Source of the DNA: Candidatus Parcubacteria bacterium
GTDB taxonomy: Bacteria > Patescibacteriota > Minisyncoccia > Minisyncoccales > JAGLUP01
Reading direction: 5' to 3'
NCBI GenBank assembly: GCA_023134715.1
Contig: JAGLUP010000006.1
Span: forward strand, 75,305 to 139,304
DNA length: 64,000 nucleotides
This document shows, piece after piece, positions 19,314 through 24,131 of the stretch; the stretch's first letter is position 1; every line of letters starts with the position of its first letter. The notes under the pieces are model-generated. The model was not told the origin of the DNA. It made no database searches and was given only the letters and a program-made list of their open reading frames with translations. A program made the position numbers and the translations under genes.

Positions 19314-19985
19314 TTAGTCATTTGGATTTGATTTGACATTTGGGCTTTGGGTTTTGGGTTTAATAAAAGTTTCTTTTATTGCATCTATCGCCTCTTTCGG
19401 TATCATTAAATATTTATAATTCAGTAAATCCAAACAGTTTAAATCTTTTGCCTGAATTGTTGCTGTTTTGGGAATATTTCTCGCGCCCAAAATTGCGTTT
19501 TTATCTATTTTTGCTAAAGCAATTAAACAAGTTTTTGCCTTACAGGGAAAATTATTTAAAATATTAAACATAACTTTGGTTTTGGCTTTTTCCGGCTTCA
19601 ACTCATTCAAAACAATCAACTCTTTATCTCTTGCTTTCTGGCTTAAAACTATAAACAACGCCTTTGTTTTCATTTTTTTAGGAATTCTCTTCTTGAAATT
19701 TCTCTCATTGGTCGGACCAAATGTAATTCCGCCTCCTCGCCAAATTGGAGAACGAGTTGAACCTGCTCTTGCTCTTCCGGTTCCTTTCTGCCGCCATGGC
19801 TTTCTGCCGCCGCCTCGCACCGCTCCCCTGTCTTTGGTATGCGCGATAACTTTCCTGCGATTTGACATTTGAGAAACAGCTACTTGGTGAACTAAATCTG
19901 GGTTCATTTTCACATCAAAAATATCTGCCGGTAATTCAGTTTTTCCTGCTTCTTCCCCTTTTTGATTATAAACTGCAACTTTCAT
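19314..19985 (-). CDS. rplD: 50S ribosomal protein L4
   Basis: Exit-tunnel protein; in E. coli it also represses the S10 operon by attenuation and translation control. 223 residues: MKVAVYNQKGEEAGKTELPA, the loop RGGGRKPWRQKGTGRARAGS, and a C-terminal domain with LNCLDLLNYKYLMIPKEAID. The last dozen residues (KTQSPNVKSNPND) come from an AT-rich tandem intergenic repeat built from AAATCCAAA-like words and are not part of normal L4. It is the first gene after the island, with its own promoter at 20086-20113. Confidence 0.96.
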   Translation of the reverse strand: MKVAVYNQKGEEAGKTELPADIFDVKMNPDLVHQVAVSQMSNRRKVIAHTKDRGAVRGGGRKPWRQKGTGRARAGSTRSPIWRGGGITFGPTNERNFKKRIPKKMKTKALFIVLSQKARDKELIVLNELKPEKAKTKVMFNILNNFPCKAKTCLIALAKIDKNAILGARNIPKTATIQAKDLNCLDLLNYKYLMIPKEAIDAIKETFIKPKTQSPNVKSNPND

Positions 19986-20007
19986 ATAATTATAAATTAT
20001 AAAAATT

Positions 20008-20023
20008 GACTCTTTTCAGAGCC
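20008..20023 (-). promoter_or_regulatory. terminator-like hairpin in the rplD leader (possible attenuator)
   Basis: Minus-strand GGCTCT-GAAA-AGAGTC followed by AATTTTTATAATT, about 20 nt before the rplD start and 55 nt after the predicted transcription start. Because it lies between promoter and gene, an attenuation site is inferred. Confidence 0.45.
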
Positions 20024-20085
20024 AAAATTACCTTAACGGATTTCACTCTGCGCAATCAATTTAATATAACCATTGATATATTTTT

Positions 20086-20113
20086 ATATTACCCTTTTCC
20101 AAAAAAAAGTCAA
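20086..20113 (-). promoter_or_regulatory. promoter restarting the S10 operon at rplD
   Basis: Minus-strand TTGACT (20108-20113), 16-bp spacer, TAATAT (20086-20091). The context GGGGTTGACTTTTTTT matches the tuf promoter context at 24114-24123. Confidence 0.7.
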
Positions 20114-20146
20114 CCCCGTAGTGAGATGTTTAATCCCATGATGTTT

Positions 20147-20168
20147 AATCCCGTGGATTAAACACTAA
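20147..20168. repeat. 9-bp stem hairpin GTTTAATCC/GGATTAAAC
   Basis: Perfect 9-bp inverted repeat with a CGT loop, preceded by another GTTTAATCC copy. It stands at the left edge of the island, between the rplD promoter and the cassette 1 promoter. Confidence 0.5.
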
Positions 20169-20174
20169 CAAACA

Positions 20175-20203
20175 TTGACTTTTAGACCATAATTTGGTAT
20201 AAT
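20175..20203 (+). promoter_or_regulatory. cassette 1 promoter
   Basis: TTGACT (20175-20180), 17-bp spacer, TATAAT (20198-20203). The block is nearly identical to the promoters of cassettes 2 and 3. Confidence 0.85.
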
Positions 20204-20207
20204 ATAA

Positions 20208-20233
20208 TTGTTTCAAATAAATAAATGAAACAA
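20208..20233 (+). promoter_or_regulatory. cassette 1 transcript-start hairpin
   Basis: TTGTTTCA pairs with TGAAACAA around a 10-nt loop. It begins at the expected transcription start, so it would form the extreme 5' end of the mRNA. Confidence 0.6.
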
Positions 20234-20269
20234 TATTAAAAAACAAATATACAAAAAGGGTGATAAAAA

Positions 20270-20434
20270 ATGAAGATAAAAGTAATGTATGTAATTGGTG
20301 GAGTACTTTTGGGCTTCGGACTTACTAGGTTTGGCATATATATAGCTAGAGTCACTAATTCTTCAAAGATGATTGGAGCTGTATTCGGACTATTAACCGC
20401 AATAGGAATTATAATTATCTTGGAGTTGCTCTAA
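20270..20434 (+). CDS. cassette 1: 54-aa glycine-rich membrane peptide
   Basis: A 54-residue protein starting MKIKVMYVIGGVLLGFGLTR, with two hydrophobic segments (about residues 5-23 and 35-53) and a short polar turn (RVTNSSK). Two membrane helices are expected. The first half resembles the cassette 3 product (GGVLLGFGL against GHVLLGFGI), so the two are probably paralogues. The SD is GGGTGAT, 5 nt before the ATG. It is a complete transcription unit with promoter 20175, 5' hairpin 20208 and terminator 20442. It could be a small toxin, an envelope stress peptide or an assembly factor; function unknown. Confidence 0.75.
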   Translation: MKIKVMYVIGGVLLGFGLTRFGIYIARVTNSSKMIGAVFGLLTAIGIIIILELL

Positions 20435-20441
20435 AATCTTT

Positions 20442-20508
20442 TCGGGCGGACTATAAAAAAATAAAAGGTATTCAACTTAAGAAAAAGTTGCTCTGCCGAT
20501 TTTTTTTA
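20442..20508 (+). terminator. cassette 1 nested-hairpin terminator
   Basis: Outer stem TCGGGCGGA/TCTGCCGA (one bulge, one G-U) encloses an inner hairpin CAACTT/AAGTTG and ends in eight T. Nearly the same element follows cassettes 2 and 3. Confidence 0.75.
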
Positions 20509-20517
20509 TGTTATAAT
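20488..20517 (+). promoter_or_regulatory. candidate promoter of the small RNA
   Basis: TTGCTC (20488-20493), 18-bp spacer, TATAAT (20512-20517). The -10 is perfect but the -35 is weak and overlaps the cassette 1 terminator. Confidence 0.45.
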
Positions 20518-20523
20518 CTCTAT

Positions 20524-20623
20524 TGTGGTGGGGATGGCGCAGTGCTATACTTATATCAGTTAATAATCCTGGTTCTTGCATTACGTTAAGACCAGCAAAA
20601 GCTCTGCGAAAGCAGGGTTTTTT
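20524..20623 (+). ncRNA. candidate small RNA between cassettes 1 and 2
   Basis: About 100 nt with no ORF of note. It has a -10 TATAAT upstream, an internal hairpin CTGGTTCTT/AAGACCAG (20569-20595) and a terminator stem CTCTGC-GAAA-GCAGGG followed by six T (20602-20623). The 5' part contains GATGGCGCAGTGC, which resembles a tRNA D-arm, but no cloverleaf can be drawn. No Rfam family was recognised. Confidence 0.45.
20602..20623 (+). terminator. intrinsic terminator of the candidate small RNA
   Basis: Six-bp stem with a GAAA tetraloop and six T. Confidence 0.7.
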
Positions 20624-20646
20624 GTTCGCCTAAAATTTGTAAAAAA

Positions 20647-20683
20647 TTGTAAGGAGCTTTGTAAGGAGCTAAACTCCTTACAA
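20647..20683. repeat. TTGTAAGGAG repeat and hairpin before cassette 2
   Basis: TTGTAAGGAG occurs twice (20647, 20659) and the second copy pairs with CTCCTTACAA (20674-20683), a 10-bp stem. Related to the GGAGCTTAGCTCC words at 4501 and 21186. Confidence 0.55.
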
Positions 20684-20694
20684 TTCTACAAACA

Positions 20695-20723
20695 TTGACT
20701 TTTAGGCCATAATTTGATATAAT
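20695..20723 (+). promoter_or_regulatory. cassette 2 promoter
   Basis: TTGACT (20695-20700), 17-bp spacer, TATAAT (20718-20723). Confidence 0.85.
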
Positions 20724-20727
20724 ATAA

Positions 20728-20750
20728 TTGTTTCAAGTCAAAAGAAACAA
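20728..20750 (+). promoter_or_regulatory. cassette 2 transcript-start hairpin
   Basis: TTGTTTC/GAAACAA. The stem matches cassettes 1 and 3 but the loop sequence differs, which suggests that the stem itself is conserved. Confidence 0.6.
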
Positions 20751-20783
20751 ATTTAAAAAAATAAATATACCGAGGTGATGAAA

Positions 20784-21089
20784 ATGACATGGAAACTAAT
20801 TCGAAGAAAGGGCACACCTGTCTATATGGTATTGGATGAAAGGGAAGAAGAAGAATTAAAAAAAGAATGCGATCTAACCGACGCAGATATTGACATTTTA
20901 GGAGAATTCAGAACAAAAGAAGATGGTCTAGATGTAAAGGATAAAATTTTTACAGTGACTACTATAAATTCTTATACGGGCAAAAAAGAAGAAACATGGA
21001 GTCGCGAAGCTGGTGAAAACTTTGCTGATAGGTTAGATTTTGACGAAAATTTAGCAAAGACTATGCAAGAAATGCATTCTTTGTCTTAA
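20784..21089 (+). CDS. cassette 2: 101-aa acidic soluble protein
   Basis: A 101-residue protein without membrane segments or cysteines, acidic overall (EREEEELKKECDLTDADIDI, REAGENFADRLDFDENLAKT). It is unlike the cassette 1 and 3 products although it has the same promoter, 5' hairpin and terminator. The start at 20784 was chosen because the SD GAGGTGAT (20772-20779) then has the same spacing as in the other cassettes; in-frame GTG 20775 and ATG 20778 would lie inside the SD. Family not recognised. A soluble partner or immunity-like role next to the membrane peptides is only a guess. Confidence 0.75.
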   Translation: MTWKLIRRKGTPVYMVLDEREEEELKKECDLTDADIDILGEFRTKEDGLDVKDKIFTVTTINSYTGKKEETWSREAGENFADRLDFDENLAKTMQEMHSLS

Positions 21090-21095
21090 AGTCTT

Positions 21096-21160
21096 TCGGG
21101 CGGACTATAAAAAAACAAACGGTATTCAACTTAAAAAAAGTTGCTCTGCCGATTTTTTTT
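21096..21160 (+). terminator. cassette 2 nested-hairpin terminator
   Basis: Same outer stem and inner CAACTT/AAGTTG hairpin as at 20442, ending in eight T, 6 nt past the stop. Confidence 0.75.
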
Positions 21161-21185
21161 ATCTAATTTTCCCTGCCTGTAACTT

Positions 21186-21230
21186 AAGGAGCTTAGCTAC
21201 AGGAGCTTAGCTACAGGAGCTTAGCTCCTT
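21186..21230. repeat. tandem GGAGCTTAGCTACA repeat before cassette 3
   Basis: Three 15-bp copies of GGAGCTTAGCTACA-like sequence ending in GGAGCTTAGCTCC, able to fold as alternating hairpins. Confidence 0.6.
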
Positions 21231-21246
21231 GAAATTCTACAAAACA

Positions 21247-21275
21247 TTGACTTTCACGCCATAATTTGGTATAAT
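21247..21275 (+). promoter_or_regulatory. cassette 3 promoter
   Basis: TTGACT (21247-21252), 17-bp spacer, TATAAT (21270-21275). Confidence 0.85.
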
Positions 21276-21279
21276 GTAA

Positions 21280-21305
21280 TTGTTTCAAATAAATAAATGA
21301 AACAA
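21280..21305 (+). promoter_or_regulatory. cassette 3 transcript-start hairpin
   Basis: TTGTTTCA/TGAAACAA, identical to cassette 1 including the loop. Confidence 0.6.
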
Positions 21306-21341
21306 TATTAAAAAACAAATATACAAAAAGGGTGATAAAAA

Positions 21342-21494
21342 ATGAAGATTTTAAAAGGAATAGGACATGTTTTGCTTGGTTTTGGAATAGTAACATTGAC
21401 TACCGTGATAATAATACCAGGCACCCACATAGTGGAATCTTTCATAGGTGGGATGTTAATAGGCGTTGGTGGAATGTTTTGTGGAACTGAGTAA
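21342..21494 (+). CDS. cassette 3: 50-aa glycine-rich membrane peptide
   Basis: A 50-residue protein starting MKILKGIGHVLLGFGIVTLT, with two hydrophobic stretches (about residues 5-25 and 34-46) joined by PGTHIVE. It is probably a paralogue of the cassette 1 peptide; both keep VLLGFG and a glycine-rich second helix. The SD and its context (GGGTGATAAAAA) are identical to cassette 1. Function unknown. Confidence 0.72.
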   Translation: MKILKGIGHVLLGFGIVTLTTVIIIPGTHIVESFIGGMLIGVGGMFCGTE

Positions 21495-21516
21495 ACTCTC
21501 TCAAAAATCAGTCCTT

Positions 21517-21580
21517 TCGGGCGGACTATAAAAAAACAAACGGTATTCAACTTAAAAAAAGTTGCTCTGCCGATTTTTTT
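21517..21580 (+). terminator. cassette 3 nested-hairpin terminator
   Basis: Same nested structure as at 20442 and 21096, ending in seven T. Confidence 0.75.
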
Positions 21581-21633
21581 TATCTAATTTTTCAACTTTT
21601 TATTTTTTCCACTCAATTTTAACTTTTCAAAAC

Positions 21634-21669
21634 ATAACACATATACCACGATCGTTGTATATGTGTTAT
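21634..21669. repeat. CGATCG-centred dispersed palindrome, copy 2
   Basis: 36-bp near-perfect palindrome centred at 21651.5 with a single mismatched pair; the inner half reads TACCACGATCGTTGTA. It lies between the cassette 3 terminator and the rplC terminator. Confidence 0.85.
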
Positions 21670-21717
21670 ACTTTCCAACAAGCTATTTGAGAATAAAAGC
21701 CCATACAACATATAATA

Positions 21718-21755
21718 AAATAACAAATCAGGCCGATCGGCCTGATTTGTTATTT
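21718..21755. terminator. 38-bp perfect palindrome, bidirectional terminator past rplC
   Basis: AAATAACAAATCAGGCCGA is followed by its exact complement. It is 62 bp past the rplC stop and would end the tuf-rpsJ-rplC transcript. A and T tracts on both sides allow it to work in both directions. Confidence 0.8.
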
Positions 21756-21816
21756 ATTCGCCACTTATTAATTATCAATTATCATTTATTAATTATTAAT
21801 AATCAATAATTATTTA

Positions 21817-22413
21817 TCATTTGCTGATCGTTATTTCTAAAAATGTTCCGCGGCGGCCGGGAATTGCGCCACGAACAGCAAGTAAATTATTTTCTTTGTC
21901 AATTTTTACTATTTTTAAATTCTTTACTGTGATTCTTTCTACCCCCATCCGTCCAGGCATCTTCTTTCCTTTAATTACTCTTTGGGGGAAAGCGCTTCCA
22001 ACTGAACCAAGCGTTCTTTGTTCGTGCTTTACTCCATGAGTAGCGTTTCTTCCGGAAAATCCCCATCTTTTTACAGCGCCCTGGAATCCTTTTCCTTTAG
22101 AAATTCCAGAAATTTTAACCTTGCTACCCTCTTCAAAAACTGAAACATCAATCTTGTCCCCTATTTTATGCTCACCACTGCTTTCAAATTCTCTTAAATA
22201 TTGAAATTCTTTTCCTTTTTCTGTTTTTTTTATTCTTTTCTGTTTTTCTTTTTTAATAAACCCAACTTGAACTGCTTCATATCCATCTTTGTCTTTTGTT
22301 TTAAGCTGAACAACCTCGCAAGGACCTGCCTCAATTAAAGTAACAGGGACTACTCGTCCCTGTTCGTTAAAAATCTGCGTCATTTCTATTTTCTTACCCA
22401 ATATAAACTTCAT
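21817..22413 (-). CDS. rplC: 50S ribosomal protein L3
   Basis: Peptidyl-transferase-centre assembly protein. 198 residues: MKFILGKKIEMTQIFNEQGR, KGKGFQGAVKRWGFSGRNAT, SVGSAFPQRVIKGKKMPGRM. It lies 2 bp past rpsJ. Unusually, rplD does not follow directly; a terminator and a 1.8-kb island intervene. Confidence 0.97.
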   Translation of the reverse strand: MKFILGKKIEMTQIFNEQGRVVPVTLIEAGPCEVVQLKTKDKDGYEAVQVGFIKKEKQKRIKKTEKGKEFQYLREFESSGEHKIGDKIDVSVFEEGSKVKISGISKGKGFQGAVKRWGFSGRNATHGVKHEQRTLGSVGSAFPQRVIKGKKMPGRMGVERITVKNLKIVKIDKENNLLAVRGAIPGRRGTFLEITISK

Positions 22414-22415
22414 AT

Positions 22416-22757
22416 TTACATCTTTATCTCAATATCAACTCCTGCCGGCAAATTTAAATTCGTTAAAGCGTCAATCACTCTTGGATTAGGAGTTAAAATA
22501 TCAATCAATCGTTTATGGGTTCTCATTTCAAATTGCTCTCTTGAATCTTTATGAACAAAAGTAGACCTATTAACTGTGTATTTGTTAATTTCTGTAGGCA
22601 AAGGAATCGGACCCAAAACTTCTACTCCAAAACGAAGCGCTGTCTCAACAATCTGTCGGGCGCTGTTGTCTATAACCCTATGGTCATAACCCCGAAGTTT
22701 TATTCGAAGCTTGGGTTTTACTTCTTCTTTGACTTCCTTTTCTTTAACTTTCGGCAT
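22416..22757 (-). CDS. rpsJ: 30S ribosomal protein S10
   Basis: Head protein, also the NusE antitermination factor. 113 residues: [40 protein letters not shown], and [20 protein letters not shown]. About 10 extra charged residues precede the core. Confidence 0.97.
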
Positions 22758-22791: not shown

Positions 22792-23985
22792 TTATTTGAT
22801 TATCTTTGTTACTACTCCTGCTCCAACGGTCTTACCTCCTTCGCGAATAGCAAACTTCTGTTTTTCTTCTAACGCAATCGGAGAAATAAGCTTAACTTTT
22901 AAATTGACAGTATCTCCGGGCATAACCATTTCAGTACCTTCTGGAAGAGTTACGTCTCCGGTAACATCAGTAGTTCTAATATAAAGTTGTGGTTTATAGC
23001 CGGTAAAAAATGGAGTGTGGCGACCACCTTCTTCCTTGCTTAAAATATAAACCTCGCCTTCAAATTCAGTATGAGGAGTAATTGAACCGGGCTTAGCTAA
23101 AACCTGACCCCTTTCTATTTCTTCTTTTTTAATTCCTCTAAGCAAAATTCCAACATTATCTCCAGCCCTTCCCTGGTCAAGAGATTTGTTAAACATTTCA
23201 ACGCTTACAGCGGTTGTTTTTACTGTTGGTTTTAGCCCTACTATTTCTATTTCTTCTCCTGAGTTGACTATTCCTCTTTCAATCCTTCCGGTAGGCACTG
23301 TTCCCCTTCCTTCAATTGAAAAAACATCTTCAATTGCCATTAAAAACGGCTTTTCAACATCTCTAACCGGTTCTGGAATATGTTCATCCACGGCATTCAT
23401 TAAGTCCAAAATTGGTTTAGCGGCTTCGTCATCAGCAGAGCTTGCTTCTAACGCTTTAAGGGCTGAACCGCGAATAATTGGAATTTCATCTCCGGGATAA
23501 TCATATTTTTTCAAAAGCTCTCTAAGTTCTGATTCAACTAAATCAATAATTTCCGGATCATCTACAGTGTCGCATTTATTTAAAAATACAACGAGCGCAG
23601 GCAATCCTACCTGACGGGCAAGTAAAATATGCTCTCTTGTTTGAGGCATCGCTCCGTCTGCGGCAGAAACAACTAAAATTCCGCCATCCATCTGGGCCGC
23701 GCCAGTAATCATATTTTTAATATAATCAGCATGACCAGGACAATCAATGTGAGCATAGTGCCTTTTTTCTGTTTCATACTCAACATGACAGACATTAATA
23801 GTCATACCACGCGCTTTTTCCTCTGGAGCTGAATCTATCTGGTCAACAGCTTTTTTAGAAGCGCTATAACCTTTTAAATCCAGAACCTTAAGAATAGCCG
23901 CTGTAAGAGTGGTCTTGCCATGGTCAACATGACCAATGGTGCCGATATTAACATGCGGTTTTGTTCTCTCAAATTTCTCTGCCAT
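22792..23985 (-). CDS. tuf: elongation factor Tu
   Basis: GTPase that brings aminoacyl-tRNA to the ribosome. 397 residues with G1 GHVDHGKT (18-25), G3 DCPGHADY, G4 NKCD and the domain 2-3 signatures ([32 protein letters not shown]). It is preceded by its own promoter at 24091-24119 and a leader of tandem CTTGTAT and TTTAGTA repeats, and is followed by rpsJ at 34 bp. Confidence 0.98.
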
Positions 23986-24090: not shown

Positions 24091-24119
24091 ATAATACTAA
24101 AAACTTTAAAAAAAGTCAA
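24091..24119 (-). promoter_or_regulatory. promoter of tuf-rpsJ-rplC
   Basis: Minus-strand TTGACT (24114-24119), 17-bp spacer, TATTAT (24091-24096). The leader (24086-23986) holds direct repeats TTTAGTA x3 and GATACAA x3. Confidence 0.7.
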
Positions 24120-24131
24120 CCCCAAACAATC

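Follow-up and report, generated by a model that had tools for sequence, protein, structure and literature searches.

Three small-gene cassettes between rplC and rplD and a probable one-gene shift of a ribosomal transcription boundary in a Patescibacteria genome

Among bacterial gene strings, that of S10 is one of the most conserved. In the 64,000-nt stretch of Candidatus Parcubacteria DNA analyzed here (the window) the string is encoded on the minus strand, and 1,831 bp separate rplC (21817-22413) from rplD (19314-19985). Upstream of this gap tuf (22792-23985, assigned as an open reading frame and by homology) heads a putative unit tuf-rpsJ-rplC, in which rpsJ (22416-22757) is placed 34 bp after tuf and only 2 bp before rplC, the last gene; downstream of it rplD heads a second putative unit. 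The source genome has been assembled to 0.76 Mb in 12 contigs and is 90% complete; the window lies inside one contig (C9), with the gap about 95 kb into it. A search for tRNA genes found none. A preliminary description of this DNA reported about 1.8 kb of plus-strand material between rplC and rplD, and this has been confirmed: the island consists of three small-gene cassettes in tandem.

The cassettes follow one another head to tail along the plus strand. Their small ORFs are different, and they share one order of parts: a promoter with an extended -10, a shared A-rich leader, a Shine-Dalgarno (SD) sequence of the GGTGA or GAGGTG type, the ORF and a shared 3′ terminator element. All three promoters, starting at 20175, 20695 and 21247, read TTGACT-17-TATAAT with a TG-extended -10 and agree with the consensus at 11 of 12 positions. 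In cassette 1 the promoter (20175-20203) is followed by an ORF of 54 amino acids (20270-20434) with two hydrophobic segments and by a 3′ element (20431-20509) that matches the terminator model R1, built from the copies of seven relatives without those of the source genome, at E 1.3e-4. Cassette 2 comprises the promoter (20695-20723), an ORF for a soluble protein of 101 amino acids without a close relative (20784-21089, SD GAGGTG), whose stop codon TAA continues straight into the AGTC of the 3′ element, and the element itself (21085-21162; R1 match at E 1e-4). Cassette 3 comprises the promoter (21247-21275), an ORF of 50 amino acids with two hydrophobic segments (21342-21494, SD GGTGA) and a 3′ element folded as a structured terminator with U8 (21506-21583; fold z -3.5, R1 match at E 0.047). 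The plus-strand spacer between cassettes 1 and 2 (20510-20625) carries a stable stem followed by T6 (fold z -2.5); it is single copy in the genome and could be a small RNA with a terminator stem, or a cassette remnant.

The ends of the cassettes are repeated over 118 nt (leader) and 78 nt (3′ element). Copies 1 and 3 of the leader are 93% identical, with copy 2 at 64%, and the 3′ elements of cassettes 2 and 3 are 100% identical, whereas the ORFs of the three cassettes differ. The ORFs of cassettes 1 and 3 have the motif VLLGFG in common, yet five of its six codons differ. Each of the three ORFs obtained its best coding score in its own frame when scored against the genes of the window. Judging from the hydrophobic segments, the two products of about 50 amino acids would be located in the membrane. 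Searches of the three ORFs against Pfam, NCBIfam and PHROGs gave chance-level matches only, no relative of the 101-amino-acid protein was found in the order, in viral contigs or in phages, and the island had no match among plasmids. The structure of this protein, predicted from the single sequence (pLDDT 73), gave no fold match at E 0.001. Low-threshold Rfam matches in the island were rejected as miRNA-like chance matches.

On the rplC side the island is bordered by a perfect palindrome of 38 bp (19+19 nt; 21718-21755), T-rich on both sides, which is likely to be a bidirectional terminator. Its fold on the minus strand was equalled by none of 200 shuffled sequences (z -5.9), and its T tract is interrupted (TTATTTTATT). 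A second hairpin, with arms 87% complementary, is found at 21629-21674 (z -5.3). On the opposite side a minus-strand promoter-like site is present at 20086-20113, reading TTGACT-16-TAATAT with 9 of 12 consensus positions. Both features had been proposed in the preliminary description, as the terminator of tuf-rpsJ-rplC and as the promoter of rplD; both are where it placed them, and termination at the first is probable. The rplD site has GGGGTTGACTTTTTTT in common with tuf, upstream of which the promoter core GGTTGACTTTTTTT is located at 24108-24121 (minus strand). Within the window this core occurs before rplD and tuf only (2 found, 0.13 expected), and in the whole genome exactly three times, each before a gene. 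The start point of rplD transcription is uncertain: TAATAT makes a weak -10 sequence, and the hairpin of the predicted rplD leader is overlapped by another promoter-like site (20025-19996, 10 of 12 positions). This leader (19986-20080, minus strand; z -2.65) contains a predicted terminator hairpin at 20025-20006 followed by U5, with CAGAGU:GCUCUG as an alternative pairing; the hairpin and U5 could equally end transcripts before rplD.

The S10 gene string was then compared in 114 genomes of the order, selected independently of gap size. The expectation that the rest of the order would have one uninterrupted S10 operon has not been borne out: of 108 genomes, 107 have an rpsJ-rplC gap of 55 bp or more, the median being about 147 bp, so the usual break lies there. 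The source genome is the sole exception, and it also has the largest rplC-rplD gap. Sense promoters were found in a third of the rpsJ-rplC gaps, at 1.6 per kb vs 0.5 in shuffled sequences. In the relatives rplC is preceded by a hairpin, e.g. ACUGGGC-UAGU-GCCCAGU, and a U run, and a short strand upstream of the hairpin (CUAGUC, AUUGCC, ACUAACC and others) complements its loop; examples are L102:13599-13654(-), L151:1839-1894(+) and L093:14136-14189(-). The hairpin shows 18 two-sided covarying cells (reached in 0 of 500 shuffles), and the upstream strand pairs with the loop of its own genome at a mean score of 12.4, against 8.3 (sd 0.4) with the loops of other genomes. A model of the whole element, R2 (a CUAGUC/AUUGCC-type strand, a GGGC-loop-GCCC hairpin and a U run), matches most relatives and has no credible match in the window, where the best hit (E 0.085) falls at an unrelated place. 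At gathering score no Rfam family was detected in the window or at the loci of 15 relatives. The comparison has revealed a conserved but uncatalogued leader RNA before rplC, which to judge from its sequence is attenuator-like, has no Rfam counterpart and could serve the order as a feedback element of its own.

These data also bear on the proposal that the split had removed the rest of the operon from the control of the classic L4-dependent leader. The tuf-rpsJ gap (median 34.5 bp in the order) leaves no room for a leader of the E. coli type, and a long structured 5′UTR directly before rpsJ is absent; since, in addition, no Rfam match was obtained, what the source genome has lost is the order's own rplC leader and not the classic one. 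The idea that the leader now before rplD is the rplC leader, shifted together with the boundary, was tried and is unsupported: the test of the upstream strand against the loop was not significant (p 0.29), and the R2 model gave no credible match.

At the rplC-rplD junction the median gap is 16 bp. The insertion is not unique, as antisense small genes are present there in many relatives. The gap exceeds 100 bp in 31 of the 114 genomes and 200 bp in 23, and wide gaps often hold a single antisense small gene. When SD-led ORFs of at least 25 codons on the opposite strand were counted at eight junctions, 17 were found at rplC-rplD (a few probably spurious), one at rpsJ-rplC and none at the six others, the excess occurring despite the longer median gap of rpsJ-rplC. 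Among these junctions rplC-rplD stands out as a hot spot for antisense small genes. Their proteins have no recognizable mutual relationship; 11 of 18 contain a membrane-like segment and others are zinc-ribbon, DUF4177-like or DUF7352 proteins. On a tree built from four ribosomal proteins, 15 changes are required to account for the 15 cassette-bearing genomes, so the cassettes have been repeatedly gained, or lost, and genomes of the same genus differ at the junction in two pairs (G012 vs G058; G005 vs G050). An SD match of at least 5 nt precedes 4.5% of 1,110 ribosomal protein genes of the order vs 15 of 19 cassette genes, a contrast that is partly circular because the SD helped to choose some of the ORFs.

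Several further observations were made in the relatives. At L086, L077, L109, L078 and L088-L092 an inverted repeat of 120-150 bp, cruciform or cloverleaf-like, lies just past the rplC stop codon; arms like GCGAGGGAAGTAATTTTT recur at this junction in several families, possibly as a dispersed miniature element. Loci L078 and L091 (genomes G113 and G114) have a promoter-like start and the conserved terminator at rplC-rplD without an ORF between them and are likely emptied cassettes. At L070 (G109) the rplC-rplD gap of 1,430 bp holds an insert in the same direction as the operon, encoding a protein with a nucleotidyltransferase domain (PF18765), perhaps part of a HEPN-MNT toxin-antitoxin pair. 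Loci L221 (G113) and L231 (G090), from different families, have an apparently identical cassette region, by cross-binning or recent transfer. Away from ribosomal genes, L044/L219 and L247 contain arrays of unrelated small ORFs in which every ORF has a promoter, a strong SD and a terminator to itself.

The shared 3′ element of the cassettes (CTTTCGGGCGGACTATAAAA...TTGCTCTGCCGATTTTTTTT) is confined to the island within the source genome, and GGGCGGACT also closes small antisense genes at rplC-rplD of other families. The latter motif alone proved too loose for searches, as many of its matches in the order are tRNA-like genes and its viral matches are unrelated sequence. Model R1 ranks the three island copies as its best matches in the window. 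They fit its pattern AGUCY...GGGC-R-GACU-NUAAA...GCC..U6, except that some 36 additional nt precede the 3′ arm and one pair of the stem is broken. Across the order R1 has 11 strong sites, those of the source genome not counted; six genomes, the source genome included, have this terminator at rplC-rplD. It also ends antisense cassettes between rpsG and fusA in G171 (L232) and after rpsI in G180 (L222), the latter encoding a 57-amino-acid membrane-like protein. The stem shows four two-sided covarying cells vs 1.0 in shuffles (3 of 500); its loop, GACUNUAAA, is conserved. When a stricter pattern of the 3′ element was used, only two genomes across 84,980 species and no viral contig matched. Our preferred reading of the element is a lineage-specific terminator for small-gene cassettes. 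A pseudoknot between its AGUC and GACU, both of which are nearly invariant, is possible.

We favor the view, with a probability of about two in three and for one assembly, the single genome of its family in the comparison, that the locus forms two ribosomal transcription units, that the boundary between them has been displaced downstream by one gene and that a cassette array occupies the new gap. The split into two units described earlier fits the sequence of this genome; given the usual rpsJ-rplC break, it is a shift of a boundary and not a first split. The usual layout of the order, tuf-rpsJ / leader-rplC-rplD-rplW, would have become tuf-rpsJ-rplC / rplD-rplW. The tuf-rpsJ-rplC transcript would probably stop at the 38-bp palindrome, which could halt stray plus-strand transcripts as well, and rplD with the genes downstream would restart at the tuf-like promoter through a leader of about 95 nt with an attenuator-like hairpin. 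A strong promoter, an SD and a structured terminator within each cassette are predicted to start its transcription, allow its translation and end its transcript. The array was probably enlarged by recombination between common cassette ends, given that the similarity of the ends greatly exceeds that of the ORFs.

The island might instead be a degenerate foreign insertion, a remnant of phage or plasmid small genes that is merely tolerated in the gap. The strong SD sites unlike those of host ribosomal genes, the orphan proteins, the phage-type DUF7352 protein in the cassette of one relative, the two relatives with promoter-plus-terminator remnants and the patchy gain and loss all speak for such an origin, which we nevertheless consider unlikely: each of the three ORFs is uninterrupted, has an SD and scores as coding in its own frame, the cassettes have intact promoters and terminators that resemble one another, and no match to phage or plasmid was obtained.

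It is rather unlikely that the operon is unsplit and that RNA polymerase continues past rplC and across the antisense island to rplD, as in a noncontiguous operon. The mRNAs of the small genes would in that case be antisense to an untranslated spacer of the ribosomal mRNA, and the two would be coupled by interference and RNase III. The arrangement fits the published definition (PMC7154746), and several relatives' layouts argue for co-transcription: in 9 of 15 the -35 box of the antisense gene lies no more than about 11 nt from the rplD start, and six of these nine boxes overlap the first rplD codons (in one of the nine genomes the promoter is weak), so there is little room for an rplD promoter in them. 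In the source genome, by contrast, rplD is separated from the first small gene by 284 nt, which contain the tuf-like promoter; this new promoter and the terminator-like palindrome after rplC, with 17 pairs, argue against it. An assembly artefact, suggested by near-identical repeats of 78-118 nt within 1.8 kb through which the number of cassettes could be miscounted, is very improbable, because the flanks on both sides are unique sequence deep within a contig and independent, unrelated MAGs have the same type of insertion at this junction, which also counts against the misassembly considered in the preliminary description.

With the boundary shift as the preferred reading, the recurrent opposite-strand gains and the move by one gene can be regarded as a natural experiment on ribosomal protein supply in minimal genomes; a literature search returned nothing on breaks of ribosomal operons in Patescibacteria. 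A wider proposal would be quite speculative: that rplC-rplD is an order-wide preferred landing site of mobile small-gene cassettes with a common conserved-loop terminator, and that antisense transcription tunes ribosomal protein synthesis, replacing the rplC leader here.

Among known systems, integron cassette arrays consist of tandem, promoterless small ORFs with like ends and variable content, at a fixed site under a common promoter. The island resembles them in its tandem small ORFs between like ends and in the variable content at a fixed site, and differs in that every cassette has its own 11/12 promoter and its own terminator. In E. coli the L4-controlled leader is a long structured 5′UTR of the S10 operon (PMC10931766). 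In this order, a hairpin and U run in the leader ahead of the L3-L4 genes would attenuate transcription in a similar manner; the order's leader, however, precedes rplC and not rpsJ, its upstream strand pairs with the hairpin loop and it has no Rfam match, while the source genome is without it and has a different hairpin leader before rplD. The noncontiguous operon menE-menC-MW1733-ytkD-MW1731 of Staphylococcus aureus (reviewed in PMC7154746) likewise has opposite-strand gene(s) between operon genes, as do the source genome with three plus-strand ORFs and its relatives with single ones; in the source genome the interrupted genes are a ribosomal string, three cassettes stand in place of one gene, and a likely terminator and a new promoter mark the boundary.
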